Shown here: one piece after another, positions 13,622-31,532 of the stretch
How the letters are laid out: the number at the start of each line of letters is the position of its first letter
Numbering within the stretch: the first letter of the stretch is position 1
Source of the DNA: Sporosarcina sp. FSL K6-1522
GTDB lineage: Bacteria > Bacillota > Bacilli > Bacillales_A > Planococcaceae
Assembly (NCBI RefSeq): GCF_038622445.1
Contig: NZ_CP152019.1
Span: 2,330,501-2,394,500 of the forward strand
Length of the DNA: 64,000 nt
Reading direction: 5' to 3'
Notes under the pieces: generated by a model
What the model saw: the letters and a program-made list of their open reading frames with translations, nothing else
What the model was told of the DNA's origin: nothing
Databases searched by the model: none
Translations under genes and position numbers: made by a program

Positions 13622-14425
13622 TTAACTTTCTGTATTTTCATCGTTTGCAACTAACCATTTAATAGTATGTTCTTCTAAAAAAGTCCCCCAATTCTCGGGG
13701 GGATTGCTATCAGAAACCACGATATCTATATCCTCAAATGGAGCCATCTTATAATGTGTGCGTTTGTTAATCTTTGTATGGTCTATAAGTAAAATGTTTT
13801 TATTCGAATGCTCGATAAGCTTTTTAGTGACCATTCCTTTGGAAATATCATAACTGGTTACGCCTGAGTGTGTAGAAAGACCGTCTGCTGCAATAAAAAA
13901 TTTATCGACATGAATATTATTTAACATTTCTAATGTGAGTTCTCCAGCTATTCTATGGTGGGTTGTGTTGACTTCGCCACCAAGCATAATAATTTTGCCT
14001 GAAAATAAGTTTTGAGCCATTAGATCAATTAATACAGTGAGAGAATTAAGTGATGAAGTAATGATTGTTAAATTTTTTTTATCTTTAAGCTTTCTAGCTA
14101 ATCGAAGGGGGGTACTTCCTTCATCGATTGCAATCACATCGTTATCGTTAATCAAAGTAACAGCCATTTTACCGATTTTTTCTTTGCCGTCTTGGTTAAT
14201 AATTTCTCTTTCTAAGGCAGGAGGTTCATTGTTAAAGAATGCGGGATTAATAGCTCCTCCATAAACCTTTTTCAATTTCTCTTCTTGTTCTAAGTCATTT
14301 AAATAATTACGAATGGTTTCGGTAGAGACCTTTAAAATAACGGCAAGGTCTTTTACTTTTACCTTGCCATCATTTTCAAGTAACTCAAGAATTTTTCTTT
14401 TTCGATCTATACTTGCTAATGACAA
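13622..14425 (-). CDS. DeoR-family transcriptional regulator (candidate AEP/BMC regulator)
   Basis: A 267-residue DeoR/GlpR repressor-type protein: a winged HTH at 1-60 (VKVKDLAVILKVSTETIRNYLNDLEQ) and a NagB-like DeoRC effector domain at about 75-240 (VIAIDEGSTPLRLARKL, ITSSLNSL, IAADGLS, LLIDHTKI). Such proteins usually sense phosphorylated metabolites. The start is TTG at 14425 with AGGTGG upstream. It is the first gene of the phosphonate/BMC block and the only regulator in it, so I infer that it controls these operons; phosphonoacetaldehyde or another phosphorylated intermediate would be a fitting ligand. Not co-transcribed with phnW (334-base gap with a repeat). Confidence 0.88.
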   Translation of the reverse strand: MSLASIDRKRKILELLENDGKVKVKDLAVILKVSTETIRNYLNDLEQEEKLKKVYGGAINPAFFNNEPPALEREIINQDGKEKIGKMAVTLINDNDVIAIDEGSTPLRLARKLKDKKNLTIITSSLNSLTVLIDLMAQNLFSGKIIMLGGEVNTTHHRIAGELTLEMLNNIHVDKFFIAADGLSTHSGVTSYDISKGMVTKKLIEHSNKNILLIDHTKINKRTHYKMAPFEDIDIVVSDSNPPENWGTFLEEHTIKWLVANDENTES

Positions 14426-14759: not shown

Positions 14760-15884
14760 TCAAACGAGACTTTTCCAATAACTACTCTCTTCAATTGCTG
14801 TTAAGAGGTCGTTCACTTTTTTAGGTGTAACCGCTCCGATGTTTCCAATTCGGAATGTGTCGAGGTTCGTGACTTTACCTGGATAAATCACAAAGCCTTT
14901 TGTTTTCAAACGACTATAGAATTCTGCAAACGTAAAGCTATCCGCATCCGGGAAGTTGAAAGATGTAATGATAGGTGATTGGTTTTCGTCTGATAATAGC
15001 GTTGTAAAGCCTAGTTTACGCATGCCTTCCACAAGTGTACGTTGGTTATCGCGGTAGCGAGCAGCACGTGCGGCAACACCGCCTTCTTCTTGCAATTCTT
15101 TCAGTGCTTGGGCAAAGGCGCGAACAACATGAGTAGGGGACGTGAAACGCCATTTGCCGTTATTTTCCTCCATCGTTTTCCACTGGTTATACAAATCGAG
15201 TGATAGTGAACGTGCATTGCCACCGCATTTTTCGAATTCTTCTTTGTTGACGATGATAAAGCCGAAGCCAGGGACCCCTTCAATACATTTGTTGGCACTA
15301 CTGATCAAATAATGAACCCCAAGTTGGTCAATATCCATTTCAATGCCACCAAAACTACTCATCGCATCCAAAATAAAAATGCGGTTATGCTTCTTCACAA
15401 CCTCACTGACTTTTTCAATCGGATTGAGGCGTCCAGTAGTTGTTTCACAATGGACGACAGCGACATGTGTAATGCCTTTATCTGCTGCTAATGTATGATC
15501 TAGTTCATCGATATCTGGATCAGACACTTCACCGCTATCGAGCATAACCGTTTCAATGTTTAACATTTCAGCAATTTCACCAATCCGATAACCGTACGCT
15601 CCGTTGCCAATGACAAGGAGCTTACCATCACGAGGAATCGCTGTGCCAATGACGGATTCTACGCTGAATGTTCCGCTTCCTTGCATGAGAACCGTTGAAT
15701 ACTTTTCTGTGTTTGTCGTAGCGAGTTGAATCAGATCTTTACGAATGCCTTGCACGATATTATTGTATTCATCATCCCATGTGCACCAGTCTTTCATCAT
15801 TGCGAGTCGGACAGTGTCACTTGTTGTAAGAGGGCCTGGTGTTAGCAATAGGTATGGATTATTAGTAGATTCAATGTTTGACAT
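14760..15884 (-). CDS. phnW: 2-aminoethylphosphonate:pyruvate transaminase PhnW, copy 1
   Basis: A 374-residue fold-type I PLP aminotransferase that converts AEP + pyruvate to phosphonoacetaldehyde + L-alanine. N-terminal signature [15 protein letters not shown]; cofactor aspartate in [13 protein letters not shown] lysine Lys199 in [15 protein letters not shown]. Length is typical. ATG is preceded by AAAGGATG. It is the distal gene of the MFS-phnW-phnW operon. It differs from the adjacent second copy at only five residues (130 His/Arg, 161 Glu/Gly, 215 Glu/Asp, 355 Lys/Glu, 373 Leu/Pro). Both copies look intact. Confidence 0.96.
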
Positions 15885-15955
15885 GAGAAATCATCCTTTC
15901 AATTGTAGGCAAATTTTTATTTTGTAAAGCTAGTAATCAATTGGTTTATCTACTA

Positions 15956-17080
15956 TCAAACTGGGCTCTTCCAATAACTGCTCTCTTCAATTGCTGTTAA
16001 GAGGTCGTTCACTTTTTCTGGTGTAACTGCTCCGATGTTTCCAATTCGGAATGTGTCGAGGTTCGTGACTTTACCTGGATAAATCACAAAGCCTTTTGTT
16101 TTCAAACGACTATAGAATTCTGCAAACGTAAAGCTATCCGCATCCGGGAAGTTGAAAGATGTAATGATAGGTGATTGGTTTTCGTCTGATAATAGCGTTG
16201 TAAAGCCTAGTTTGCGCATGCCTTCCACAAGTGTACGTTGGTTATCGCGGTAGCGAGCAGCACGTGCGGCAACACCGCCTTCTTCTTGCAATTCTTTCAG
16301 TGCTTGGGCAAAGGCACGAACAACATGAGTAGGGGACGTGAAACGCCATTTTCCGTTATTTTCCTCCATTGTTTTCCACTGGTTATACAAATCGAGTGAT
16401 AGTGAACGTGCATTGCCACCACATTTTTCGAATTCATCTTTGTTGACGATGATAAAGCCGAAGCCAGGGACCCCTTCAATACATTTGTTGGCACTACTGA
16501 TCAAATAATGAACCCCAAGTTGGTCAATATCCATTTCAATGCCACCAAAACTACTCATCGCATCCAAAATAAAAATGCGGTTATGCTTCTTCACAACCCC
16601 ACTGACTTTTTCAATCGGATTGAGGCGTCCAGTAGTTGTTTCGCAATGGACGACAGCGACATGTGTAATGCCTTTATCTGCTGCTAATGTACGATCTAGT
16701 TCATCGATATCTGGATCAGACACTTCACCGCTATCGAGCATAACCGTTTCAATGTTTAACATTTCAGCAATTTCACCAATCCGATAACCGTACGCTCCGT
16801 TGCCAATGACAAGTAGCTTACCATCACGAGGAATCGCTGTGCCAATGACGGATTCTACGCTGAATGTCCCGCTTCCTTGCATGAGAACCGTTGAATACTT
16901 TTCCGTGTTTGTCGTAGCGAGTTGAATCAGATCTTTACGAATGCCTTGCACGATATTATTGTATTCATCATCCCATGTGCACCAGTCTTTCATCATTGCG
17001 AGTCGGACAGTGTCACTTGTTGTAAGAGGGCCTGGTGTTAGCAATAGGTATGGATTGTTAGTAGATTCAATGTTTGACAT
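15956..17080 (-). CDS. phnW: 2-aminoethylphosphonate:pyruvate transaminase PhnW, copy 2
   Basis: Tandem duplicate of the downstream phnW: 374 residues, 369 identical by direct comparison, with the same Lys199 and glycine-rich phosphate-binding region. DNA identity extends through the ribosome site and about 18 bases upstream of the ATG, then stops abruptly, so the duplicated unit is essentially the gene plus its translation signal. It starts 33 bases after the MFS stop and is translated as the second gene of the operon. Either gene dosage or ongoing gene conversion may keep the copies alike. Confidence 0.96.
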
Positions 17081-17113: not shown

Positions 17114-18490
17114 TTACTCGGTAAGCGTGTTGTGCGAAATTGCATGAACAAGTGGAGTTTTTGTGTCACTCATTACTTCTTCGTCTTTTTTATTATTGTT
17201 ATTCGTGTTTCCAGTGTCATTTGTTACAGGTTTGATTAACGCTACACAGATGATGGATATGACGCCTAATATCATCAGATAGACTGCAGCAGGAACCCAA
17301 GAGCCATTAAATTTAGTGATGAGACCCGTTGCAACCAATGGCATTGTTCCACCGAAAATAGCAGCTCCCATTTGGTAACCGACTGAAATCCCCGTGTAGC
17401 GAACTTCTGGACTAAACATTTCTGAGAACATTGTGCCAAGCACTGCAGTAATAATGGACCAGAGGGCATATCCAATCAAAACGGCTACCGTTAGCGATAG
17501 CATGGAGGTTTTTGAAAGCAATAGGAAATAAGGTATCGCAAAAGCGATTACACCAAGTGAACCAGCGAAAAATACTTTCTTACGACCAATCACATCAGAA
17601 ATGCGTCCGGCTAGCGGAATAAAGAGTAGTGAACTGAGTGTTCCAATGGTTACCGCATTTAGCACTGAGTTCTCGGGCATCGAAAGGTTGTTTGTTGCAT
17701 ATGAAATACCGAACGTCGCAAACATATAGAAGGGAGCCGTTTCAATCGCTTTAGCACCAGTTGTTAAAATAATCGCTCTCCAGTGGTATTTAAACGTAGT
17801 GACGATTGGTAATTTAGGAATAGAACCATCTTGTTTTGATTTTTGGAAGTCTGGTGTCTCATCCAAATTACCACGTAGCCAAATGCCAAGAAACACCAAA
17901 CCTAAACTTGCTATAAATGGTAATCTCCAACCCCATGCAAGGAACTGGGCATCGGGTAATAATCGCATGAGAGACATTGTACCTGTACCAAGTATCATCC
18001 CAACGGCTGCACCCATCATCGGGATACTTCCTGCAAAACCACGTTTTTTTTCATCAGCGTACTCAACAGCAAGTAATACTGCACCGCCCCACTCACCACC
18101 AACTGCAATTCCTTGAACTATCCTCAAGGCTACTAGCAAAATAGGTGCCCAGATTCCAATGGCATGGTATGTAGGCAATAAACCAATTAACGCTGTACTT
18201 ACACCCATAATCCCTAAAGTAAGAACTAATGATTTTTTTCTTCCCATTTTATCTCCAATATGACTGAAAATAACGCCACCCAGTGGGCGGAAGAAGTAGG
18301 GAATTCCAAAAGAGGCTAAGGCCAATAAAAGACCTATTTTTGGATCGAAGTTCGGAAAATAGACTTTGTTAAATACCAGGGCTGCGACAGCCCCATACAG
18401 CAGGTAGTCATAATACTCAATTGAACTACCAATTAAACTAGCCCACAATGCTTTTCTTTGAATCTTCTTTGAGTAAGTTGGTCTTCCCAC
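17114..18490 (-). CDS. MFS transporter, metabolite:H+ symporter (MHS) type, probable phosphonate importer
   Basis: A 458-residue 12-segment permease with the MHS signature at its start (RKALWASLIGSSIEYYDYLLYG) and the MFS loop motifs GDKMGRKKSL and GRISDVIGRKKVF. GTG at 18490 is preferred: AGGGAG lies 8 bases upstream, and the longer ATG-initiated reading frame (from 18583) would run across a cre-like operator. It heads an operon with two phnW genes, so I infer uptake of AEP or a related zwitterionic phosphonate by proton symport. The C-terminal tail is Asn/Lys-rich. The substrate is not proven by sequence. Confidence 0.88.
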   Translation of the reverse strand: MGRPTYSKKIQRKALWASLIGSSIEYYDYLLYGAVAALVFNKVYFPNFDPKIGLLLALASFGIPYFFRPLGGVIFSHIGDKMGRKKSLVLTLGIMGVSTALIGLLPTYHAIGIWAPILLVALRIVQGIAVGGEWGGAVLLAVEYADEKKRGFAGSIPMMGAAVGMILGTGTMSLMRLLPDAQFLAWGWRLPFIASLGLVFLGIWLRGNLDETPDFQKSKQDGSIPKLPIVTTFKYHWRAIILTTGAKAIETAPFYMFATFGISYATNNLSMPENSVLNAVTIGTLSSLLFIPLAGRISDVIGRKKVFFAGSLGVIAFAIPYFLLLSKTSMLSLTVAVLIGYALWSIITAVLGTMFSEMFSPEVRYTGISVGYQMGAAIFGGTMPLVATGLITKFNGSWVPAAVYLMILGVISIICVALIKPVTNDTGNTNNNNKKDEEVMSDTKTPLVHAISHNTLTE

Positions 18491-18520
18491 GGTATTCACT
18501 CCCTTCAAACTATTATTATT

Positions 18521-18534
18521 TGCAAGCGCTTTCA
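18521..18534. promoter_or_regulatory. CcpA cre-like site upstream of MFS-phnW-phnW
   Basis: TGCAAGCGCTTTCA matches the cre consensus TGNAANCGNTNNCA at every defined position and is a near-perfect palindrome. It lies 31-44 bases upstream of the preferred GTG start and downstream of the candidate -10, where CcpA would repress. This implies carbon catabolite control of AEP uptake and transamination. Confidence 0.75.
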
Positions 18535-18617
18535 TATTTCGCTTGAGGAATACTATAACACGGTTTTTTGGAAAAGTGAACAACTATTCCGATAATTGTT
18601 TTTATTTTCTTTGAACT

Positions 18618-19551: not shown

Positions 19552-20748
19552 ATGAGTATGAAAGTGTTTTGTTTAGGTGGGGCTGGAAGAATTGCCAGAG
19601 AAGCAGTGCTTGATCTTGTTGAACACTCTGAATTTGAAGTTATTACAATTGGCGATTTTAATGAAGAAATCGGGCAAGAACTAGTGAAAGAACTGAACGA
19701 TTCACGTGTAAACTTTGTAAAAGTAAATGTAATGAACCACAAGGAAACTGTGGAACAAATGAAAGGCTACGATGTAGTAATGGATGGAACGACAATTACA
19801 CTAAATGGCCTTTCCACCGCTTGCATCGCAGAAGCAGGCTGTCATGGTATTAATTTAAATGGATTTGGCGCGGAAGACGAGTACTCTGAGACGTTTAAGA
19901 AAAATAATAGAACAGCCGTACCTGGCTTTGGAATGACACCAGGGGTAACACAAATGATGGCGATGTATGCAGCCAATCAATTGGATACGGTGGAGAGTGT
20001 GAGAGTCAGTCATGGATCATTTAGACCGATTGCATTCTCGAAATCTATTACAGAAACAACAACTTATGAGTATGATCCAGATCTTCCTGGACGAATTATT
20101 TTTGAAAATGGTGAATTTGTACAAGTAGCACCATTTGCAAGGCCGCGAAAAATTCAGTTGCCTGAACCGTATGGAGAAACGATTCAATATATTATCCCTC
20201 ACTCTGAGACAAGGACTTTGGCGAAAGCGCTTTCACATAAAGGCGTCAAGCTAATTGAAGTGCGAGGCACTTGGCCGAAGCAAAATATGCAACTAGTTCG
20301 TGGACTTTACGACTATGGTATTATGCGCAATCCTAAAGTGACAGTTAACGGAGCTGAGGTTGGGCTGATGGACATTATTGGTGATTATCTATTGCAATCC
20401 AAAGAAGGCCAAGAAACAGAACTATATGGATACTCTCTTCATATAGAAGTGATTGGTACGAGAGATGGCGTACGAAAAAGCCATGTTCTCTATCATACGC
20501 ACCCTGCAAGTGATGGATCTGTAAAAGGTTGGGAGAAGCTAAGGGCTTATACACGAAATGTAGGTATCCCAATGGCAATCGCAACAGAACTGTTGGCAAA
20601 GGGTGCTGTTAAAGATACCGGTGTATTGATTCCGGAAGAAGCTTTCGAACCAGAAGTGATATTTAAACAATTGAAGAAACGTGGAATCCACATTCACGAA
20701 GAAATTAATGTGGTGCCTGAAGATGAAAAGGTAGAGGCAATTATCTAA
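19552..20748 (+). CDS. Saccharopine-dehydrogenase-like NAD(P)-dependent oxidoreductase
   Basis: A 398-residue protein of the saccharopine dehydrogenase/LYS9 superfamily: an N-terminal Rossmann domain with VFCLGGAGRIAREAVLDL and an acidic residue after strand 2 (ITIGDF), then a C-terminal Sacch_dh_C-like domain from about residue 125 (AVPGFGMTPGVTQMMAMYAA, HTHPASDG). These enzymes oxidise or form secondary amines and amino acids. It is the first gene of the phnX-BMC operon. No standard AEP route needs it, so its substrate (perhaps an N-substituted AEP or an alanine/opine-type adduct) is unknown. No encapsulation peptide is visible. RBS GGAG precedes ATG. Confidence 0.75.
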   Translation: MSMKVFCLGGAGRIAREAVLDLVEHSEFEVITIGDFNEEIGQELVKELNDSRVNFVKVNVMNHKETVEQMKGYDVVMDGTTITLNGLSTACIAEAGCHGINLNGFGAEDEYSETFKKNNRTAVPGFGMTPGVTQMMAMYAANQLDTVESVRVSHGSFRPIAFSKSITETTTYEYDPDLPGRIIFENGEFVQVAPFARPRKIQLPEPYGETIQYIIPHSETRTLAKALSHKGVKLIEVRGTWPKQNMQLVRGLYDYGIMRNPKVTVNGAEVGLMDIIGDYLLQSKEGQETELYGYSLHIEVIGTRDGVRKSHVLYHTHPASDGSVKGWEKLRAYTRNVGIPMAIATELLAKGAVKDTGVLIPEEAFEPEVIFKQLKKRGIHIHEEINVVPEDEKVEAII

Positions 20749-20832
20749 CACGATTAGCACCCTATTATAATAGAAGAAACATGAACAGAAATTTACTTAC
20801 AGGTACGTTTCGAAATGAAGGAGGTCAGTATT

Positions 20833-21642
20833 TTGGATAAAAAATCTCCCCAGATTGAAGCCATTGTATTCGACTGGGCTGGAACAACAGTTGACTATGG
20901 TTGCTTTGCACCATTGGATGTGTTTAAAGAAGTATTCAAAATTAGAGGTATTGAGGTAACGGATGAGGAAACTCGTGAACCTATGGGTACGTTGAAATGG
21001 GACCATATTCAGACCATGTGTAATATGGACCGGATTGCACAGCTTTGGAAAGATAAATTTGGCCGACTCCCTGAAAAGGAAGATGTGGACGCGCTATATG
21101 CAGATTATGAACCGATGTTATTGGAAAGACTCCCCAATTACTGTACTCCAGTACCGGGCATGTTAGAATTGTTAGCTCGTTTGAGAGGTCAAGGATTAAA
21201 GGTAGGTTCAACAACAGGTTATACATCGAAAATGATGGAAATTGTTGCGCCGGGTGCCAAACAGAAAGGATATGCCCCGGATTCAATGGTTACGCCAGAT
21301 GATGTGCCTGCCGGACGACCGTTTCCTTGGATGATTTATCAAAATGCAATGAATTTAGGCGTAGGGAATATGAAGCATATTATCAAAGCTGGCGACACAT
21401 TGAGTGATGTTAGAGAAGGCGTGAACGCAGGTGTATGGAGTGTTGGAATTATTTTAGGTAGTAGTGAAATGGGCTTGCATGAAGCGGAAGCAAATGCTAT
21501 GGATCCGGATGAACTGGCCGATCGAATGGAGGTTGTCGCCCAGAAGTTCAAAGAGGCGGGAGCGCACTATGTCATTAATAGTGTCGGTGATTTGGATAAA
21601 CTCATACCAAAGATTAATGCACGTCTTAGAAATGGAGATTGA
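20833..21642 (+). CDS. phnX: Phosphonoacetaldehyde hydrolase (phosphonatase) PhnX
   Basis: A 269-residue HAD-superfamily enzyme that splits the C-P bond of phosphonoacetaldehyde to acetaldehyde and phosphate. The nucleophile Asp14 lies in VFDWAGTTVDYG and the Schiff-base Lys55 in MGTLKWDHI; the offset of two from the known Asp12/Lys53 of the B. cereus enzyme supports the alignment. HAD motifs GSTTGYTSKMM and AGDTLSDVREGVNAG follow. The start is TTG at 20833, 8 bases after AAGGAGG. It lies 84 bases after the saccharopine-like gene and 94 before the first shell gene, so its product acetaldehyde is made next to a BMC-encoded aldehyde dehydrogenase. Confidence 0.96.
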   Translation: MDKKSPQIEAIVFDWAGTTVDYGCFAPLDVFKEVFKIRGIEVTDEETREPMGTLKWDHIQTMCNMDRIAQLWKDKFGRLPEKEDVDALYADYEPMLLERLPNYCTPVPGMLELLARLRGQGLKVGSTTGYTSKMMEIVAPGAKQKGYAPDSMVTPDDVPAGRPFPWMIYQNAMNLGVGNMKHIIKAGDTLSDVREGVNAGVWSVGIILGSSEMGLHEAEANAMDPDELADRMEVVAQKFKEAGAHYVINSVGDLDKLIPKINARLRNGD

Positions 21643-21736
21643 CGGTGCGATGTTAGGAAGGCACCATTCCATCTATTAATAGAAGCTAATAGTTTGTACT
21701 CGACAGAAAAGCCAAGAATTAAAGAGGTGAAATTAG

Positions 21737-22270
21737 GTGGAAAACCAAAACTATGCACTGGGCATGATTGAAACAATCGGTTATCCGGCCCTTGTAGCGG
21801 CGGCAGATGCAGCATCTAAAGCAGCTGATGTTAAGATTGTTACATATCAAGGTGCAGATGCTGGGCTTGTCACGATTTATTTAATCGGGGATGTTGCTTC
21901 GGTTCAATCTGCAGTCGCGATTGGAACAGAAGCAGCCAAAGGTGTTGGTCGAATACATCACTCTCATGTCATTGCAAGACCAGACGAAAATGTAAAAAAA
22001 CTGATTTTTCAAGCTCTATCAGATACAAAAGAGAACAAAGTAGAAAAAAAAACAGTCGTTAAAGATGAACAGCCTGCAGTAAAGGTGGTTAAAGAAGTTA
22101 GCGACAATAAATCAACAGATTTATCGAAAAAGACTCTTAAAGAATTAAGAGAACTGGCTACTTCTGATGTTAAATTCCCTTTGTCGGCTGATAAGATTGC
22201 ATCAGCTAATAAAGAGGAATTACTGAAATACTTATCAGCAACACAGGCTGGGAAAGGTGGCGATAAATAA
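21737..22270 (+). CDS. BMC-H shell protein with C-terminal Rho-N/SAP-like extension
   Basis: A 177-residue protein. Residues 4-93 are one BMC (Pfam BMC) domain with the typical start ALGMIETIGYPALVAAADA; the pore loop reads GADAGLVT rather than the GSG/GGG of PduA-type tiles. A charged linker (about 94-126) leads to a helical extension at about 127-168 (LSKKTLKELRELA...NKEELLKYLS) that resembles Rho N-terminal or SAP-like helix-extended-loop-helix modules. Extended BMC-H proteins such as EutK and PduK are a precedent, but with other tail domains. GTG at 21737 follows AAAGAGGTGA. The stop overlaps the ATG of the aldehyde dehydrogenase. Confidence 0.88.
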   Translation: MENQNYALGMIETIGYPALVAAADAASKAADVKIVTYQGADAGLVTIYLIGDVASVQSAVAIGTEAAKGVGRIHHSHVIARPDENVKKLIFQALSDTKENKVEKKTVVKDEQPAVKVVKEVSDNKSTDLSKKTLKELRELATSDVKFPLSADKIASANKEELLKYLSATQAGKGGDK

Positions 22271-23745
22271 TGAGAATGGATATTGATCTTGAATCAATCC
22301 AAGAAGCAAGAAATTTTCTTGAACAAGCTCAGCAAGCACAACAAATCATTGGAAAAATGTCGCAACATGACATTGACCAAATTGTGCACGGCATGGCACA
22401 AGCTGCTTTGAAGGAGTCAGGAAGACTTGCATCATTAGCAGTCGAAGAAACTGGCTACGGTAAAGTAGAGGATAAGTTAACGAAAAATCTATTTTCTGCT
22501 CGTGATATTTATGAGTCGGTTAAAGATAAAAAGACGGTTGGCATTATTTCGCGAGATGATACGAACAAAGTTTGGGAAGTGGCGGAACCCGTTGGAGTCG
22601 TTGCGGGAATTATCCCTTCAACAAACCCAACGTCCACGGCTATTTTTAAAGCGATCATTGCGGTGAAATCGAGAAATGCCATCGTTCTGAGTCCGCATCC
22701 AGCAGCCGCAAAATGTACAAAAGAGGCAGCAGATATTTTACAACAAGCTGCAGTACAAGCGGGGGCACCAGCAGGTCTAATTTCATGTATTTCAAAACCA
22801 ACTGTTGCTGCTGCCAATGAGCTCATGAAACACCAGGTGACAAAAGTCATTTTGGCAACTGGCGGATCAGATATGGTAAAAGCGGCTTATAGCTCTGGGA
22901 AACCTGCATATGGAGTAGGGCCAGGTAATGTTCCTGTCTTTATCCATTCAAGTGCGAATATCCAACAGGCTGTGAAACAAATTATTCGCAGTAAAACTTT
23001 CGACTACGGGACAATTTGTGCTTCAGAGCAGGCACTTGTTGTTGAAAAGTCTATTAAGCGCAAGGTTAAGCAAGAATTAGAAAACCAAGGTGCTTATTTC
23101 CTTGACGACTATGAGAAGAAGCGTATTGAAGGCATCATTCTCATTAATGGTCGGTTGAATCCCAAAATTGTTGGTCAATCGCCCCAAAAACTTGCTGAAT
23201 TAGCGGGAATTGCGATTACAGATGATTGTAAACTATTGGTTGCTGAAGAAAATAATATTGGCAAAGCCTATCCGTTATCACTTGAAAAACTGTCTCCAAT
23301 CTTGGCTTTTTATGTAGCCGACAATTGGCAAGAGGCGAGCGCTACTTGCGCACAGCTACTTGAGTTAGGTGGGCTAGGCCATACAGCGGGTATTCATTGT
23401 CAAGATGAAGCGATGATCGAAAGTTTTGCTTTGGAACAGCAGGCATCTCGTGTAGTTGTGAATTCAGGTACAACATTTGGAGGCATTGGTGCAACGACAG
23501 GTATTCAACCATCGATGACACTCGGTTGTGGTTCATATGGCAATAATATTTCTTCAGATAATATTAGTGTTGAGCATTTACTAAATATTAAGCGAGTGGC
23601 TTATGGAATTCGTGAAATGGAAGAGGCACCGGCTGTTCCAAGTTATCAACAAGTTGCTAATGTAGTGGCGAGCAATGGGCCTAATATTTCAAGAGATGAA
23701 ATCATGGACATTGTAAAAACGGTTTTGCAGGAATTGAAACTATAA
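22270..23745 (+). CDS. BMC-associated CoA-acylating acetaldehyde dehydrogenase
   Basis: A 491-residue aldehyde dehydrogenase of the EutE/PduP class (acetaldehyde + CoA + NAD+ = acetyl-CoA + NADH). The catalytic Cys250 sits in FDYGTICASEQALV and the nucleotide-binding region in IIPSTNPTSTAIFKAI. The C-terminus ends in a linker and an amphipathic helix, SRDEIMDIVKTVLQELKL (474-491), typical of encapsulation peptides that direct enzymes into a BMC; EutE/PduP more often carry theirs at the N-terminus. It overlaps the preceding shell gene (TAATG) and is followed after 29 bases by another shell gene. The substrate is inferred to be the acetaldehyde released by PhnX. Confidence 0.93.
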   Translation: MRMDIDLESIQEARNFLEQAQQAQQIIGKMSQHDIDQIVHGMAQAALKESGRLASLAVEETGYGKVEDKLTKNLFSARDIYESVKDKKTVGIISRDDTNKVWEVAEPVGVVAGIIPSTNPTSTAIFKAIIAVKSRNAIVLSPHPAAAKCTKEAADILQQAAVQAGAPAGLISCISKPTVAAANELMKHQVTKVILATGGSDMVKAAYSSGKPAYGVGPGNVPVFIHSSANIQQAVKQIIRSKTFDYGTICASEQALVVEKSIKRKVKQELENQGAYFLDDYEKKRIEGIILINGRLNPKIVGQSPQKLAELAGIAITDDCKLLVAEENNIGKAYPLSLEKLSPILAFYVADNWQEASATCAQLLELGGLGHTAGIHCQDEAMIESFALEQQASRVVVNSGTTFGGIGATTGIQPSMTLGCGSYGNNISSDNISVEHLLNIKRVAYGIREMEEAPAVPSYQQVANVVASNGPNISRDEIMDIVKTVLQELKL

Positions 23746-23774
23746 AATAACAATCATTTTGAGGAGGAAACGCA

Positions 23775-24062
23775 ATGAACGGAGAAATGGGAGCATTAGG
23801 TATGATCGAAACAAAAGGTTTAGTAGGAGCTGTAGAAGCTGCTGACGCGATGTCAAAGGCTGCAAACGTGAAATTGATTGGGAAGGTTCACGTAGGAGGC
23901 GGTTTGGTAACAGTCATGGTACGTGGTGATGTAGGTGCAGTGAAAGCATCGGTGGATGCAGGGGCTGCTGCTGTTGAAAATATTGGCGAATTGGTTTCTG
24001 TCCATGTAATTCCGCGCCCTCATTCAGATATTGAACTTATTCTTCCGAAGTTGGAAGGGTAA
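23775..24062 (+). CDS. BMC-H shell protein (PduA/EutM-like hexamer)
   Basis: A 95-residue single-BMC-domain protein, the main facet tile type. It begins [21 protein letters not shown] and ends [17 protein letters not shown], very close to PduA/EutM. The pore loop is HVGGGLVTV (Gly41-43), a GGG variant of the PduA GSG pore, suited to small polar solutes. ATG is preceded by GAGGAGG. Likely the most abundant shell component of this locus, since the only other BMC-domain protein carries a bulky tail. Confidence 0.97.
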
Positions 24063-24072
24063 TTCATAGCCT

Positions 24073-24858
24073 ATGGTGCTGATCACGGAATCCAAACTAA
24101 GAAAACTGTTAAGAAAGGGGATTCCAAATCCTTTCCCATTTAATGAGGGGGATAAAATTACTCCAGCGGCAATGGATTTTCTCAGGGACAGAAAAATTGG
24201 GTTAGATGATAAACGATTAGGTCACTCTACAAGAACGTCAACGAAAAGAGGAAATGAATTAATGATTCCTGTAGGAGTATCAAATAGACATTTACATTTA
24301 TCAAGCTATGATATCCAGCTATTATTTGGTGAAAACTATGAGTTAACTCCCCTGCGCCAGTTATCCCAAGAGGGCCAGTTTGCTGCGAAAGAACAAGTGA
24401 CGTTACTTGGACCAAAAGGGCTGATAAAAGATGTTAGGGTTCTTGGACCAACACGAGGAGAAACGCAAGTAGAGATATCAATAACGGATGGATTTCAATT
24501 AGGCATTCATCCTCAAGTTAGACTGTCAGGCTCAATCGAAGACACTCCAGGTTTGACCCTGATTGGACCAAAAGGTTGCGTTTCTCTTCAAAAAGGAGTG
24601 ATTGTAGCACAACGCCATGTTCATATGTCCCCTGAAAACGCCTCTGAATTCGGGGTGAATCAGGGGGAGACGTTATTGTTACAAACATCAGGTGAACGAT
24701 CTGTTATTTTTACAGATGTAGTTGTGCGTGTCGATCCAAACTTTCAACTCGATTTCCACTTGGATCTTGACGAAGGAAATGCGGCGGGTTTAAAAACGGG
24801 TGACCAAGTAAAGGTTATTGGAAAAAACGGTGAACTTCTGTCTTGGGAGGGGAGGTGA
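24073..24858 (+). CDS. pduL: Phosphate acyltransferase PduL (BMC-type phosphotransacylase)
   Basis: A 261-residue PduL enzyme (acetyl-CoA + Pi = acetyl-phosphate + CoA), which recycles CoA inside microcompartments. Two PduL beta-barrel repeats are visible: GVSNRHLHLS (His73, His75) and VAQRHVHMSP (His182, His184), with the last ligand in FHLDLDEGNAAGL (His229), so the expected five metal-binding histidines are present. The N-terminal 45 residues (LITESKLRKLLRKGIP...ITPAAMDFLRDRKI) form the BMC-associated leader often found in PduL. It begins 10 bases after the BMC-H gene and overlaps the next gene by a GTGA junction. Confidence 0.94.
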   Translation: MVLITESKLRKLLRKGIPNPFPFNEGDKITPAAMDFLRDRKIGLDDKRLGHSTRTSTKRGNELMIPVGVSNRHLHLSSYDIQLLFGENYELTPLRQLSQEGQFAAKEQVTLLGPKGLIKDVRVLGPTRGETQVEISITDGFQLGIHPQVRLSGSIEDTPGLTLIGPKGCVSLQKGVIVAQRHVHMSPENASEFGVNQGETLLLQTSGERSVIFTDVVVRVDPNFQLDFHLDLDEGNAAGLKTGDQVKVIGKNGELLSWEGR

Positions 24859-25682
24859 AGAGGATAGATATTCGTGGAATGGTTGAATCTGTTGTGCGGG
24901 AAGTCGTGAATTCAATCAAAGTAGAAAAAGAACAAGAGGAAAATGGCAAAGTGTTATTTGTTTTTTGTGATAGCTCGGCACATGAGTCGTTTGAAGATCA
25001 ATTTATCGAATTGAGAAATGCCCGTATTGGTTATGACATGCTGTTTTTAGATGGAGAAACATCTTCATGGCTTGGGCTCAATCAAATTGAATCGAACGGT
25101 TGTGGAAAGGTTATTGCAGCGGATGATAATGCGCCATCACCGATAGAGTTGCCAAAAGCATACGATGGTATCATTATCCCTGAAATTGATTTAGATAATG
25201 CTGCCCGTGTTGCAACAGGATTAAAAGGGACGATTAAAGTAGAAATTATTTTTTCTGCTCTGCTTCTACAAAAGTTTATCTTGATTGGTGACGATGTTAC
25301 AGGGATTAAACGGGCAGATCGACGTTGTTTAAAAACGACGGCATTGCCAGTCCCTTATCAAAAGTTATTTAAAGATTATTTGCGACAGCTAAGTGAGCTG
25401 GGTGTTGAATTTGCAGCTTTAAAAGATTTGTCGGAAATTGTAGTCAGAAAGCTTTGTGTGAAAGAAGCAGCGAATGTGGATAATGGACATCTTGAAGAGC
25501 GCAGTGAGCAATCACAAGGAAACATGCTAACGTTTAACAAGAAATTACTTACACCAGGCTGGATTCAATCGCAATCGAACATTGTAAACGATACAATTTA
25601 TCTTTCTAAAGGTGTCATTATCTCTCCTCTTGCAAGAGATTTAATTAAGGAGAGAAAACTGACGCTCAAAGTGATTGACTAA
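24855..25682 (+). CDS. PduM-like BMC-associated protein with N-terminal encapsulation-peptide-like helix
   Basis: About 275 residues. GTG at 24855 overlaps the pduL stop (GTGA); TTG at 24843 is an alternative. No catalytic motif is recognised. The first 22 residues form an amphipathic helix (RGMVESVVREVVNSI) like those that target proteins into BMCs. The C-terminus, GVIISPLARDLIKERKLTLKVID preceded by a variable linker, resembles the end of PduM and of the hypothetical eut-operon proteins of Firmicutes; a middle segment (ALLLQKFILIGDDV) fits the same pattern. I infer a structural or assembly role or an uncharacterised enzyme. Family assignment is tentative. Confidence 0.6.
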   Translation: MKRIDIRGMVESVVREVVNSIKVEKEQEENGKVLFVFCDSSAHESFEDQFIELRNARIGYDMLFLDGETSSWLGLNQIESNGCGKVIAADDNAPSPIELPKAYDGIIIPEIDLDNAARVATGLKGTIKVEIIFSALLLQKFILIGDDVTGIKRADRRCLKTTALPVPYQKLFKDYLRQLSELGVEFAALKDLSEIVVRKLCVKEAANVDNGHLEERSEQSQGNMLTFNKKLLTPGWIQSQSNIVNDTIYLSKGVIISPLARDLIKERKLTLKVID

Positions 25683-25694
25683 GGGTGAATAACT

Positions 25695-25964
25695 ATGCTT
25701 TTAGCAAGAGTAATGGGCAGTATTTGGACAACTCAAAAAGAAAAGGGAATGGAACATTTAAAGCTTCTAATTGTACAGCCCGAAAATTTTCTAGAAGAGT
25801 TGGAAGGCAATGCTTTTGTTGCCATTGACAGGATTGGCGCAGGAGTAGGGGAATTAGTGCTTGTTACGCAAGGTAGCCCTGCCCAGAGGCTAACTGGGGA
25901 CAAAGAATCACCTATCGATGCAGCTATAGTTGGTATTGTCGACTCTTTTGAATTAAATAATTGA
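25695..25964 (+). CDS. BMC-P vertex protein (EutN/CcmL family)
   Basis: An 89-residue pentameric vertex protein that closes the icosahedral shell. Signature features: MLLARVMGSIWTTQKEKGMEHLKLLIVQP at the start, then AIDRIGAGVGELVLVTQGSPAQ and DAAIVGIVD at the end. ATG lies 12 bases after the preceding stop. It is the last gene of the BMC operon and is followed by a strong terminator. It is the only BMC-P gene here; no BMC-T (trimer) gene is present in the window. Confidence 0.95.
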   Translation: MLLARVMGSIWTTQKEKGMEHLKLLIVQPENFLEELEGNAFVAIDRIGAGVGELVLVTQGSPAQRLTGDKESPIDAAIVGIVDSFELNN

Positions 25965-26042: not shown

Positions 26043-26087
26043 TAACGATTATTAACGATTATTTTTAAAGGAAAAGGGTGACTAATG

Positions 26088-27023
26088 ATGACATTCAAAC
26101 GTCATAAAATAGCAGTTATTGGTGCGGGCCATACAGGAGCAACAACTGCTTTAATGCTAGCACAAAAAGATTTAGGTGATATCGTTCTCTTAGATATTCC
26201 GGAACAAAGCAATGCAACAAAGGGAAAAGCGCTTGATTTATTACAAACAGGGCCTGTGCAGGGTTTCAATGCTCGGATAAAAGGTACCTCGAACTTTGAG
26301 GATATTGCAAATGCCGACATGGTCATTATTACAGCTGGCATTGCGCGAAAACCAGGAATGAGTCGTGATGATCTTGTGGCAATAAACGCCAAGATTATGC
26401 GTGCGATCTCCCAACAAATCGTAAGATATGCGCCGGATAGCTATATTCTTGTTTTGAGTAACCCGGTAGATGCGATGACATACGTTTGCTATAAGACGAC
26501 AAATTTCCGCAAAAATAGAGTGATTGGACAATCAGGTGTATTAGACACGGCCAGATTTAACACGTTTGTTGCAGAAGAGCTTAATATTTCTGTCGAAGAT
26601 GTTTCTGGGTTTGTTTTGGGGGGGCATGGTGACGAAATGGTACCGCTCGTTCGATATTCCTATGCAGGAGGAATACCCTTAGAAAAAATGATACGACAAG
26701 ATCGTCTTGATGCAATTGTCGAACGGACGCGAAAGGGCGGAGGTGAAATAGTTAATCTTCTAGGAAATGGAAGTGCTTATTATGCGCCAGCGGCTTCTCT
26801 TGTTCAAATGGCGGAGGCTATAATCCACGATAAAAAAAGAATCCTCCCTTCCATCGCATACTTACAAGGTGAGTATGGCTATTATGATTTATATTTAGGG
26901 GTTCCCACAATTATCGGTGGAAACGGTATCGAAAGTATTATTGAGCTAGATCTGACGGCTGATGAAAAGTCTGGATTGCATCGATCGGTTCAAACTGTAA
27001 AAGAAGTAATGAACCTTTTATAA
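26088..27023 (+). CDS. Malate dehydrogenase, second paralogue
   Basis: A 311-residue NAD-dependent malate dehydrogenase of the LDH-like MDH class: [15 protein letters not shown]ossmann loop, acidic LLDIPE after strand 2 (NAD preference), catalytic region [18 protein letters not shown]. By eye about two thirds of residues equal the TCA enzyme at 44093-45031. The second ATG (26088) has the better spacing from AAGGGTG. Flanked by terminators on both sides, so it is monocistronic or expressed by read-through. In this setting it may balance NADH or support growth on acetyl units; neither is proven. Confidence 0.93.
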
Positions 27024-27412: not shown

Positions 27413-28465
27413 ATGAAAAATGTATTTTGGATGGCAATTATTGTGATTGTTCTCACCATGTTGGCTGCTTGTGGAGGAAACGAAGGGGAATCCGGTAAGG
27501 ATAAAAAAGAAAGTCTTGTCGTTTATACGGCTATAGAAACGGATTATTTACAAGATCACCTAGCGCTATTTGAAGAGGCACATCCAGATATTAAACTAGA
27601 CTTAGTCAGAGATTCCAGCGGTATTATCATTTCTAGAATACTCGCAGAAAAGGATAATCCAAAAGCAGATGTTATCTGGGGATTGAGTGTTGATAGTTTA
27701 ATTATGTTTGATGAGGACGGTATGTTAGAAGGTTACAATCCAAAAGGATCAGAAGATTTAATTCCCGAATTTGCAGATCAAAAAAATGATCCGATGAGAT
27801 GGACGGGGATTGCAGCTTATATGACAGCAATCGCTGTCAATACTGCAGAAATGGAAAAGTTAGGTCTGCCTATTCCGAAAACATACCAAGATCTTATTGA
27901 CCCTCAATATAAAGGACTCATTTCAATGCCCAATCCGGCCTCAAGTGGTACGGGATTTTTGACAGTAGCAGGATTGCTTCAGTTATTTGACACCGAAGAA
28001 GAGGGCTGGGCGTACATGGATAAACTCCATAATAATATTGGAATCTATACACACTCTGGTTCGAAACCAGCAGTCGAGGCTGCGACTGGAGAATTTCCTA
28101 TTGGTATCTCTTTCGATGGCCGCGCGATTAAACAAGAAGAAAGTGGCGCGCCACTCGTAACGGTTTTCCCGGAAGAGGGATCGGGCTGGACGTTAGAAGC
28201 AAATGCTTTAATTAAAAAAGATAATATTAAAGAGGATGCCAAAGTATTTCTTGACTGGGCGAACAGCAAATCTACTATGGAAAGTTATAATAAGCAGTTT
28301 GCGATTACAGCAATAGATTTAGGCAAGACGCCTCCAGCAAGTTATCCGGCGGATCCGATGGGGCAACTACTTGAAAATGACTTGTATTGGGCGGCAGATA
28401 ACAGAGTTGCAATTGTAGATAAGTGGATTGAAAAGTACGATGGGAAAAGTGAACCAAAAGAATAA
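27413..28465 (+). CDS. phnS: AEP ABC transporter substrate-binding lipoprotein
   Basis: A 350-residue extracellular binding protein. The lipoprotein signal has lipobox LAAC (Cys at about residue 20, LTMLAACGG). The mature domain (YTAIETDYLQDHLALFEEAHP, KADVIWGLSVDS, YDGKSEP at the end) matches the family annotated as 2-aminoethylphosphonate-binding, in the iron(III)/thiamine-like periplasmic-binding cluster. It is the first gene of a three-gene importer; a 229-base gap with a hairpin follows, consistent with higher expression of the binding protein. ATG follows GAGAGGGG. Confidence 0.88.
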   Translation: MKNVFWMAIIVIVLTMLAACGGNEGESGKDKKESLVVYTAIETDYLQDHLALFEEAHPDIKLDLVRDSSGIIISRILAEKDNPKADVIWGLSVDSLIMFDEDGMLEGYNPKGSEDLIPEFADQKNDPMRWTGIAAYMTAIAVNTAEMEKLGLPIPKTYQDLIDPQYKGLISMPNPASSGTGFLTVAGLLQLFDTEEEGWAYMDKLHNNIGIYTHSGSKPAVEAATGEFPIGISFDGRAIKQEESGAPLVTVFPEEGSGWTLEANALIKKDNIKEDAKVFLDWANSKSTMESYNKQFAITAIDLGKTPPASYPADPMGQLLENDLYWAADNRVAIVDKWIEKYDGKSEPKE

Positions 28466-28694: not shown

Positions 28695-29738
28695 ATGGAG
28701 TTTTTAGCAATTCGTAATGTCACAAAAACTTTCGGACAGGTTACCGCTCTAGACAACATTAATATCTCGATTAAAAAAGGTGAATTCGTTTGTCTATTAG
28801 GACCTAGTGGATGTGGAAAAACTACTTTACTAAGGGTGATTGCTGGTTTGGAAGAACCGAATGTAGGGTCTCAGATTATCATGGACGGAAAAGATATTAC
28901 GAAACTACCTCCGGCTAAAAGAGACTTTGGAATTGTATTTCAGTCCTATGCGCTTTTTCCGAATATGACAGCTTTTCAAAACGTTGCTTACGGATTGAAA
29001 AATAAAAAGTATACAAAAGATGAAATCAAGGTGAAAGTTCAAGAGTCTTTAGACGCAGTCAATTTGGGGCATCTGGCGAAACGTTATCCAGCACAATTAT
29101 CTGGAGGGCAACAGCAACGAATCGCGTTAGCTAGAGCATTGGCTATATCTCCTGGATTCCTCTTACTTGATGAGCCGCTCTCTGCTTTAGATGCCAAGGT
29201 TAGGGTGAAGCTCCGGATGGAAATTCGTAATCTTCAGGAGAAACTAGGGATCACTACAATTATGGTAACCCATGATCAGGAAGAAGCGCTAACGATGGGA
29301 GATAAAATTGTTGTTATGAACAATGCAACAATGGAGCAGATTGGTACACCACAAGAAATCTATGAGAAGCCAGCGACGCCGTTTGTAGCTGATTTTATAG
29401 GGACTGTCAATCAATTCCGCGGTACTGATTCTTACGTGGCGATTCGACCTGAGCATATAAAAATTAGAAGAGAAGCGACTAGAGACACAATCATTACTAC
29501 ATTGAAAGCCATGGAGTTTCGCGGTAGCTCGTACCGTCTGTATTTGGAAGTAGAGAATGGTGGGCCTTATAGTTTTGAAAACGAGCTTCTTATGTCAGAT
29601 ATTTCAACGGATGATTTAAGAAAATTAAATCTTAAAGTAGAGGAAAAGTTATTTGTAGAGTTTCCTCAAAATCAGTTAATTACTTATGACAATCGTATTG
29701 AAGAAGAGGTGGGCGAACTTTCGATGGTCACTAGTTAA
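28695..29738 (+). CDS. phnT: AEP ABC transporter ATP-binding protein
   Basis: A 347-residue ABC ATPase: Walker A GPSGCGKTTLLR, Q-loop FQSYALFPN, signature LSGGQQQR, Walker B LLLDEPLSALD, H-loop MVTHDQEEAL. A C-terminal TOBE-like domain (about 235-335, YVAIRPEHIKI) marks the spermidine/iron/AEP importer group. Expected to energise the permease encoded 24 bases downstream. AEP specificity comes from its neighbours and the family resemblance. Confidence 0.9.
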   Translation: MEFLAIRNVTKTFGQVTALDNINISIKKGEFVCLLGPSGCGKTTLLRVIAGLEEPNVGSQIIMDGKDITKLPPAKRDFGIVFQSYALFPNMTAFQNVAYGLKNKKYTKDEIKVKVQESLDAVNLGHLAKRYPAQLSGGQQQRIALARALAISPGFLLLDEPLSALDAKVRVKLRMEIRNLQEKLGITTIMVTHDQEEALTMGDKIVVMNNATMEQIGTPQEIYEKPATPFVADFIGTVNQFRGTDSYVAIRPEHIKIRREATRDTIITTLKAMEFRGSSYRLYLEVENGGPYSFENELLMSDISTDDLRKLNLKVEEKLFVEFPQNQLITYDNRIEEEVGELSMVTS

Positions 29739-29762: not shown

Positions 29763-31532
29763 ATGAAAAAAGATACCGCAATGGATCCGACACTGGTGAT
29801 GATAAAGAGTAGGAAAAAAATACGCCAAAAAACGAGCGCTGTAGATCTTTTGCAGAAAACATTGATTGTACTGGTGATTTTAGGGCTTGTAGTGACTCTT
29901 GTTTTTCCATTAATACAATTGGTGCTTGTTTCATTACAGGATAGAAGTGGGAATTATGTTGGGTTGGAAAACTTCGTTAAGTACTTTACAACGAGTTCTT
30001 TAATTCGACCGTTGTATAATACGTTATTTGTCGCGACAACAACTGGTTTTATCGCTGTTGCACTTGGTTTTTTTTATGCGTATGCGCTAACTCGGACCAA
30101 TATGAGATGGAAATCCTTTTTTAAGTATGTAGCTTTTGTTCCTTTATTCGCGCCAACGATGATGTATGGGATTGGTTTAGTGAATTTGTTTGGGAATAAC
30201 GGGGTAATTACGACTGGATTTTTCGGCATGTTCCAAGGGGTTGATATTGATTTATACGGGCCAGTGGGAATTATCATTTCGTTAATATTTTATACGTTTC
30301 CCCAAACGCTTATATTGTTAACGATTTCTCTAGCAAATACGGATTATAGGTTGTATGAGGCGGCGGATTCGCTAGGTTCTGGAGTAGTGAAGAAGTTCTT
30401 TACTGTAACATTACCGAGTATGAAATACGGCTTGTTCAGCGCATTCATCATTGGTTTTATTTTGAGCTTCACTGATTTCGGTGCCCCGATAGTTGTTGGG
30501 GGCGACTTCAAAGTTATGGCTGTAGACATCTATCAACAAGTGGTAGGACAATTTAACATGTCAATGGGTGCAACAGTTGGTGTTATTTTGATTATTCCAG
30601 CTGTCATTGCGTTTGTAGCTGATAGGGTTGTACAACGAAAAGAAAGTTCGGCAATTTCATCGAAATCGGTTTCTTACAAAATAAAACCAAATCGATTACG
30701 AGATCGTGTCTATTTTATATACTGCTTACTTATCACAGGAGCTATTTTTTCACTGATTATAGCAGTGCTTGCTCCAACGTTTGTTAAATACTGGCCGTAT
30801 AATTTCGCGTTCACAACTGAGCATTATACGTTTAAAAATGTAATCGGGGGATTCCAACCTTATTTTAACAGTTTGACTATGGCCCTCATTACTGCAATAT
30901 GTGGAACGTTTATCGTGTTCTTTGGAGCGTATTTAATTGAGAAATCACGTGTTATGAGAGCGACTAGACAAGTTGGTTATTTTCTCTCACTGATTCCTTT
31001 GGCACTCCCGGGATTGGTGATTGGTTTAGCGTATATCTTTTTCTTTAACCAATCAGAGTTCTCTATACCGTTTACTGGAAGGTCGTTTTCGAATCCATTG
31101 AGTGGTCTGTACGGTACAATTTGGATTCTTATATTGGCCAACCTGATTCACTTTTACTCAGTCAACTTCTTTACCGCAACTACGGCTTTGAAAAAACTCG
31201 ATAAAGAATTTGAACCTGTATCGGAATCGATGAATATTCCCTTTTATAAAACATTTACACGGGTCACGCTTCCGATGTCATTGCCTGCTATTTTGGAAAT
31301 GATGGTGTACTTCTTTGTGAACTCTATGACAACGATATCAGCAGTTATTTTCCTATATTCACCAAGTACTCGACCTGCTTCTGTAGCGATTGTTGATATG
31401 GTAGGGGCTGGCGATATGTCTGCAGCCGCTGCGCTGGCTGTCATTATTCTTTTAACAAATATTTTAGTACGTCTTGGCTATGAGCTTTTGACGAAGAAAA
31501 TCAGAAATCGTGCTGGGGCATGGCAGAAGTAA
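29763..31532 (+). CDS. AEP ABC transporter permease (two fused permease domains)
   Basis: A 589-residue membrane protein with two binding-protein-dependent permease domains in one chain (about 60-290 and 345-580), roughly 12 segments. EAA-loop-like sequences occur in each half (YRLYEAADSLGSGVVKKFFTVTLP and DKEFEPVSESMNIPFYKTFTRVTLP). This fused form is the one annotated for AEP importers. ATG follows GAAGGAGGG. A terminator follows the gene. It completes the importer with the two preceding genes. Confidence 0.9.
   Translation: MKKDTAMDPTLVMIKSRKKIRQKTSAVDLLQKTLIVLVILGLVVTLVFPLIQLVLVSLQDRSGNYVGLENFVKYFTTSSLIRPLYNTLFVATTTGFIAVALGFFYAYALTRTNMRWKSFFKYVAFVPLFAPTMMYGIGLVNLFGNNGVITTGFFGMFQGVDIDLYGPVGIIISLIFYTFPQTLILLTISLANTDYRLYEAADSLGSGVVKKFFTVTLPSMKYGLFSAFIIGFILSFTDFGAPIVVGGDFKVMAVDIYQQVVGQFNMSMGATVGVILIIPAVIAFVADRVVQRKESSAISSKSVSYKIKPNRLRDRVYFIYCLLITGAIFSLIIAVLAPTFVKYWPYNFAFTTEHYTFKNVIGGFQPYFNSLTMALITAICGTFIVFFGAYLIEKSRVMRATRQVGYFLSLIPLALPGLVIGLAYIFFFNQSEFSIPFTGRSFSNPLSGLYGTIWILILANLIHFYSVNFFTATTALKKLDKEFEPVSESMNIPFYKTFTRVTLPMSLPAILEMMVYFFVNSMTTISAVIFLYSPSTRPASVAIVDMVGAGDMSAAAALAVIILLTNILVRLGYELLTKKIRNRAGAWQK

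Follow-up and report, generated by a model that had tools for sequence, protein, structure and literature searches.

Recurrent linkage of phnX with an ethanolamine-type microcompartment module in Bacilli points to a probable phosphonate metabolosome

The combination of a phosphonoacetaldehyde hydrolase gene (phnX) with shell and core genes of a bacterial microcompartment (BMC) characterises a gene run of Sporosarcina sp. FSL K6-1522, at 19552-25964 on the + strand of a stretch of 64,000 nucleotides (hereafter the window; positions 2330501-2394500 in a genome of 4,393,196 bases on one contig). We consider it probable that this run codes for a microcompartment of the ethanolamine type turned to phosphonate use, whose protein shell would enclose the oxidation of the acetaldehyde that PhnX is predicted to release. 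It represents a BMC locus type that recurs and is conserved, phnX being its likely aldehyde source: phnX together with the shell module was found in 11 intact loci and one decayed locus, distributed over three groups of Bacilli.

Profile searches of the window proteins recovered every gene named in the initial annotation, which had placed phnX in one run with two BMC-H genes, a BMC-P gene, a CoA-acylating aldehyde dehydrogenase (AldDH), PduL and a PduM-like protein; the last of these matches below its cut-off. From phnX through the BMC-P gene, intergenic gaps span -16 to 94 bases. The run comprises, in order:

19552..20748, + strand: saccharopine-dehydrogenase-like oxidoreductase, the first gene of the run (PF03435, PF16653)
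20815..21642, + strand: phnX, phosphonoacetaldehyde hydrolase (360.5 bits against the phosphonatase model, cut-off 220)
21737..22270, + strand: BMC-H with a C-terminal extension of about 90 residues (PF00936 over cut-off)
22270..23745, + strand: predicted CoA-acylating acetaldehyde dehydrogenase (AldDH) with a putative encapsulation-type C-terminal tail (PF00171; TIGR02518 637.4, cut-off 620.1)
23775..24062, + strand: BMC-H, EutM-like (PF00936; 125.8 bits with the EutM-type model, below the cut-off of 133)
24073..24858, + strand: PduL-type phosphotransacylase with an N-terminal extension of about 60 residues (NF011652 266.1, cut-off 209)
24843..25682, + strand: PduM-like protein (distant TIGR02536 match, below cut-off, 39.5 of 152.6)
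25695..25964, + strand: BMC-P pentamer shell protein, EutN/CcmL (PF03319 104.2, cut-off 25)

The PF00936 domains of the two BMC-H proteins score 77.6 and 97 bits (cut-off 24.5). Residues D20 and K61 of PhnX align with D12 and K53 of a solved phosphonoacetaldehyde hydrolase, which we take to be catalytic, and the AldDH cysteine is present in a segment common to a solved acetylating acetaldehyde dehydrogenase. The family score of the AldDH and its kinship with the AldDHs of ethanolamine (EUT) loci argue for the specificity towards acetaldehyde that had been proposed for it.

The intact loci that were read are those of the window, L029, L003, L081, L025, L026, L027, L028, L078, L079 and L080. In the Brevibacillus loci phnX lies upstream, with phnW and a regulator standing between it and the shell genes. 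A PhnX scan of the contig collection returned 10 loci, two of which hold the whole shell module (Peribacillus simplex and Brevibacillus massiliensis), while shell-gene relatives are absent from the other eight in stretches reaching as far as 10 kb to either side. In an evenly drawn class sample of 398 genomes, PhnX exceeded its cut-off in 39, and a BMC-domain search of those 39 genomes, plus G035 and G057, placed a BMC-domain gene at most 5 kb from phnX in five of the 39 (G000, G319, G388, G397 and G406). A sixth genome, G167, bears the decayed locus (L038), where a C-terminal PduL fragment, the PduM-like gene and the BMC-P gene persist beside phnWX. Among contigs below 60 kb, nine are size-matched behind PhnX and the PduM-like protein (among the best 120 of 168 and the best 120 of 706 matches), measuring 4540, 7951, 8558, 15560, 18375, 23240, 33739, 44314 and 55506 bases; going by size alone, they would be the same contigs for both proteins, and one belongs to Bacillus sp. 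MUM 116.

Linkage to the shell module follows the class of PhnX. Taking a PduM-like gene no more than 8 kb away from PhnX as the linkage marker, we surveyed 39 genomes of Brevibacillaceae, the family of G388 (PhnX accepted at E up to 1e-60), and found 25 PhnX genes in 18 genomes, eight of them 68-70% and 17 of them 54-59% identical to the PhnX of the window. All eight close PhnX genes are linked, the decayed locus of G167 included, and none of the 17 distant ones (Fisher p 9e-7, kinship ignored). Among 261 genomes of the window's order (PduM-like protein accepted at E up to 1e-40), 48 PhnX genes occur in 46 genomes; the three with at least 73% identity (G000, G035, G473) are all linked, against 0/45 of those with at most 51% (p 6e-5), and exactly these three genomes of the order carry the PduM-like gene. 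Outside the surveyed groups the split is less sharp, two size-matched contig pairs having a PhnX of only 60% identity. A PhnX tree of 41 rows, without L078-L081, groups the linked PhnX proteins in 9 rows, including one unlinked protein from Fictibacillus, with support 94/99.

Eight of the 10 searched genomes with an intact locus (G000, G473, G388, G397, G406, G429, G430 and G431) carry a further PhnX that is unlinked and belongs to the distant class; G035 and G319 lack one. In the window's genome this further PhnX, which shares 48% identity with that of the window, is part of a second phnWX cluster (L032) at 650 kb, and no relatives of BMC, AldDH or PduL genes occur in the 20 kb read around it. 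The initial annotation had staked its reading on the co-occurrence of phnX and BMC genes in related genomes, which the 11 intact loci and the full split between close and distant PhnX bear out. A chance adjacency of phnX and shell genes was considered and ruled out, because related genomes repeat the pairing and because it divides according to the class of PhnX.

The shell module itself has close kin in EUT loci. Nine EUT loci of Bacilli (L030, L031, L035, L036, L037, L039, L040, L054 and L055) share with the phosphonate loci a block made of BMC-H with extension, AldDH, BMC-H, PduL, PduM-like and BMC-P genes, standing there beside eutA, eutB, eutL, eutS and eutP; on a short contig (L034) the AldDH is partial and no PduL gene lies between the BMC-H and PduM-like genes. 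Because their gene order is that of Bacilli EUT loci, the phosphonate loci probably took their shell module from EUT. An AldDH tree of 22 rows unites the AldDHs of seven phosphonate loci (7/11, the other four having been fetched later) in one group (95/97) among EUT-type AldDHs. In a tree of the concatenated module (20 rows, omitting loci with an AldDH below 400 residues or a missing module part) the 11 phosphonate loci fall on one side of a branch with weak support (43/91), and the PduM-like tree fails to unite them. L005, taken as the same contig as L025, was omitted from the trees, and L038 entered the PduM-like and PhnX trees only. With the AldDH tree in favour, the concatenated tree weak and the PduM-like tree not supporting it, one capture of the EUT module by phosphonate loci is likely only; a firm single origin for the whole module was rejected on the same trees, the favourable one counting 7 phosphonate rows. 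The module of Brevibacillus massiliensis (G319, L025) keeps eutL beside phnWX, and eutS, eutP, eutA and eutB lie on another contig (L083) without the other shell genes. This arrangement may be a half-done capture, or a shell common to both pathways.

The genes around the run supply a route into the predicted compartment. They lie on the - strand 5' of the run and on the + strand 3' of it, and they include the flanking phnW and importer of 2-aminoethylphosphonate (AEP) already pointed out in the initial annotation, to which a second phnW and pbfA can now be added:

13622..14425, - strand: DeoR-family regulator, recurring beside phnW/phnX in related clusters
14760..15884, - strand: phnW copy 1, 2-aminoethylphosphonate-pyruvate transaminase (TIGR02326 580 bits for the copy tested, cut-off 400.8)
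15956..17080, - strand: phnW copy 2, a tandem near-copy of copy 1 by sequence comparison
17114..18583, - strand: major facilitator superfamily (MFS) metabolite/H+ symporter (below cut-off), beside phnW also in G035, Peribacillus and G473
26085..27023, + strand: malate dehydrogenase, one of two in the genome (family match)
27413..28465, + strand: AEP ABC importer, binding protein (TIGR03261 402.8, cut-off 392.75)
28695..29738, + strand: AEP ABC importer, ATPase (TIGR03265 466.2, cut-off 457.7)
29763..31532, + strand: AEP ABC importer, permease (TIGR03262 691.8, cut-off 593.25)
31649..32494, + strand: EamA-type membrane protein (phn_DUF6, below cut-off)
32637..34004, + strand: pbfA, a putative second feed of phosphonoacetaldehyde (NF049939 728.6, cut-off 525)

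The importer genes pass the cut-offs of the putative AEP transporter models PhnS2/PhnT2/PhnU2. In the proposed pathway, the ABC importer would bring in AEP, and phosphonoacetaldehyde would be made from it by PhnW, or from hydroxy-AEP by PbfA, a route described in the available part of PMC12366243; pbfA genes are present in the window and in G035. PhnX would then cleave phosphonoacetaldehyde to acetaldehyde and phosphate; within the shell, the tagged AldDH would convert acetaldehyde to acetyl-CoA with production of NADH, and PduL would form acetyl-phosphate and return the CoA. The locus contains the components of a metabolosome, namely BMC-H, BMC-P, a tagged CoA-acylating AldDH, PduL and an aldehyde-making enzyme (PhnX, its product predicted from its family), as well as both PhnW and PhnX of the phnWX pathway. 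From this gene content we infer the substrate flow, the formation of a shell and the use of AEP by the cluster as a carbon and nitrogen source. In the locus of G473 (L081), an alanine dehydrogenase gene (608.3 bits, cut-off 391.85) between those for BMC-P and malate dehydrogenase fits this scheme, since its product would regenerate pyruvate for PhnW.

The location of each step is less evenly marked. In all 11 phosphonate loci the AldDH ends, after a variable linker, in the tail ISRDEI--I-K-VL-EL, like EUT AldDHs, and this tail is predicted to be amphipathic and of the encapsulation type; the N-terminal extension of PduL is kept in the rows compared. No typical encapsulation helix was seen on PhnX when termini at predicted start codons were compared by eye, and in the same comparison no convincing tag was found on PhnX, PhnW, malate dehydrogenase or the saccharopine-dehydrogenase-like protein. 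With moderate confidence we place AldDH and PduL inside the shell and regard a position outside it, or docked to it, as the more likely one for PhnX because this enzyme has no clear tag. The alternative that PhnX enters the lumen, by binding other cargo or through a short N-terminal extension, is a serious possibility, though the less probable one. Signature enzymes are luminal in most metabolosomes, and the PhnX proteins of the window, L029, L003 and L081 do have an N-terminal extension with a shared pattern. This extension counts only about ten residues and is shorter than encapsulation peptides, described in the available text of PMC8217296 as a helix of 15-20 residues plus a linker. The PhnX proteins of Brevibacillaceae lack a shared extension: in Brevibacillus a methionine directly precedes the catalytic domain, and the longest frames start up to about 17 residues earlier with no shared sequence. 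The proposal that PhnX replaces the signature enzyme thus holds for the pathway and, as PhnX is without a typical encapsulation helix, not so far for the lumen.

The NADH formed by the AldDH would have to be recycled. The proteins of the run that were scanned include no alcohol dehydrogenase (the rest of the genome was not searched), so that the standard metabolosome core is incomplete; loci missing the phosphotransacylase and/or the alcohol dehydrogenase are still counted as metabolosome loci in PMC4207490, as far as the consulted part goes. The best candidate in the window's family is malate dehydrogenase, whose gene lies 3' of the shell genes in all eight BMC loci read of that family (window, L029, L081 after alanine dehydrogenase, L044, L045, L050, L046 and L057). 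As L044, L045, L046, L050 and L057 are EUT and other BMC loci, where the gene also follows the last shell genes, this suggests a general role of malate dehydrogenase in the microcompartments of the family. The stretches read of Peribacillus and of the phosphonate loci in Brevibacillus contain no malate dehydrogenase gene. The second malate dehydrogenase gene of the window's genome lies at about 44.1 kb of the window.

A shell of EUT ancestry could also serve another aldehyde source encoded elsewhere, such as ethanolamine, a diol or deoxyribose phosphate, with phnX a mere neighbour. The EUT-like order and sequence of the module would agree with this, as would the shell of G319, seemingly split off from its EUT locus. 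We nevertheless find this alternative improbable. Ethanolamine ammonia-lyase is the one rival source that was searched genome-wide: the search found no EutB in the window's one-contig genome, and did find it in all 20 other genomes of the same search, which had been picked as carriers of BMC loci. The absence of EutB rules out ethanolamine as the acetaldehyde source in the window's genome. The only BMC-domain matches there are the two BMC-H genes of the run, so neither EutL nor EutS shell proteins are present. Moreover, a separate EUT locus equipped with a shell module of its own exists in both G388 and G406 (L054, L055), an additional PduM-like gene of G397 lies about 5 kb away from an EutB gene, and linkage tracks one PhnX class in both surveys. 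The operon could instead be a relic under loss, its shell genes hitchhiking in an AEP cluster acquired by transfer. The reduction of the G167 locus and a Fictibacillus stretch without shell genes would speak for such a history, which we judge very unlikely in the face of 11 intact loci and of ratios of nonsynonymous to synonymous substitution (dN/dS) of 0.018-0.155 for shell and core genes between close Brevibacillus loci, where computable and non-zero. One Brevibacillus pair has identical BMC-H proteins, and almost every gene is saturated at synonymous sites when the window is compared with L029.

Several observations weigh against a dedicated phosphonate compartment. Within the class sample, phnX and a BMC-domain gene lie within 5 kb in only those five of 39 genomes, though 25 of the 39 carry BMC-domain genes; where other genomes have both, the closest of the listed BMC-domain matches is at least 119 kb off or on another contig. 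G167 retains phnWX with most of the shell module gone, and Fictibacillus gelatini has a close PhnX (65% identical) with no shell genes within 10 kb. The 45 distant PhnX genes of the order were checked by the PduM-like marker alone, which is lacking in EUT and other BMC types of the family, and they may therefore be linked to other BMC types, since the marker denotes this module only. To these are added the untagged PhnX, the run without an alcohol dehydrogenase, the single module origin that is weak in the concatenated tree and unrecovered in the PduM-like tree, and the G319 shell that may serve ethanolamine too. With these points set against the recurrence, we lean, with some reserve, towards the phosphonate metabolosome as a new functional class of bacterial organelle: C-P cleavage would feed the shell and allow growth on AEP as a source of carbon, nitrogen and phosphorus at a flux where free acetaldehyde would do harm, an EUT module having been captured by a phnWX cluster, half done in Brevibacillus massiliensis.

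On other aspects, the phosphonate clusters show features of their own. The two phnW copies of the window (14760-17080) differ at 5 of 374 residues. The extension of the first BMC-H (21737-22270) has no Pfam match in the window; it ends in GKGGDK there and in L029, L003 and L081, and is different or shorter in Brevibacillus. A near full-length copy of the saccharopine-dehydrogenase-like gene with at least 69% identity occurs in 19 of 41 genomes searched, at most 8 kb from phnX in 17 of these and at 24-26 kb in G397 and G406; with or without shell genes (L058-L065 included), it regularly accompanies phnX clusters in Bacilli. Some sources call relatives of its product lysine 6-dehydrogenase, a literature search found no paper combining saccharopine dehydrogenase, phosphonate and phnW, and an NAD(P)-dependent conversion of AEP or of an N-substituted AEP is no more than a guess. 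In G035, the cluster borders (L084, L085) contain relatives of the window's MgtC gene and of its gene at 3842-4960; neither accD nor accA turned up there, so that the borders differ between the two species. The same genome holds a second BMC locus (L057), separated from the phosphonate locus by about 45 kb, in which genes for an aminotransferase, a phosphotransferase-like protein, a HAD hydrolase, a permease and a short-chain dehydrogenase were read by eye and which resembles the RMM type as presented in part of PMC4207490. Promoter-like sites (57 observed, 50.1 expected, sd, the standard deviation, 7.1), terminator-like sites (18 against 14.6, sd 4.5) and inverted repeats stayed within noise and were unused.

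If the proposed function is correct, phosphonates join the substrates handled in bacterial organelles, and the phosphorus redox cycle becomes tied to compartment biology. The shell would be transferable between pathways yielding the same aldehyde, and genomes with two PhnX enzymes, one beside a shell and one without, would allow asking what the shell is for. A literature search combining microcompartment or metabolosome with phosphonate pathway terms found no relevant paper, and the sections available of PMC10892978, PMC3909097, PMC12263773 and PMC5820359 nowhere join microcompartments and phosphonate use; for Poribacteria, BMC genes and a phnY/phnZ-type AEP route are discussed apart in the section of PMC3909097 at hand. 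The main texts of two BMC catalogues (PMC8217296, PMC4207490), in the portions at our disposal, name no phosphonate locus type; their supplements lie outside this comparison and, because unnamed types are drawn there, the locus may sit in a catalogue under a neutral label. It could have been filed under the MUF/MIC loci, which in the portion of PMC8217296 at our disposal likewise have an AldDH without an obvious signature enzyme.

Among known systems, the EUT metabolosome of Bacilli shares with the phosphonate loci the order from extended BMC-H to BMC-P, acetaldehyde as predicted intermediate, and an AldDH 58-64% identical. The phosphonate loci differ in carrying PhnX, PhnW, an AEP importer and in some cases PbfA instead, and relatives of EutA, EutB, EutL, EutS and EutP are absent from the phn stretches read other than the window, except for EutL in G319. 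With the hydrolytic phnWX pathway of AEP they have PhnW, PhnX, the importer, the DeoR-type regulator and PbfA in common, whereas shell, AldDH and PduL relatives are missing from the stretches read of the unlinked clusters, L032 included. The sugar phosphate utilisation (SPU) metabolosome, as outlined in the accessible portion of PMC8217296, likewise feeds a shell AldDH from an acetaldehyde source other than EUT; that source is a DeoC-type aldolase, and in the locus of the window it would be a C-P hydrolase.

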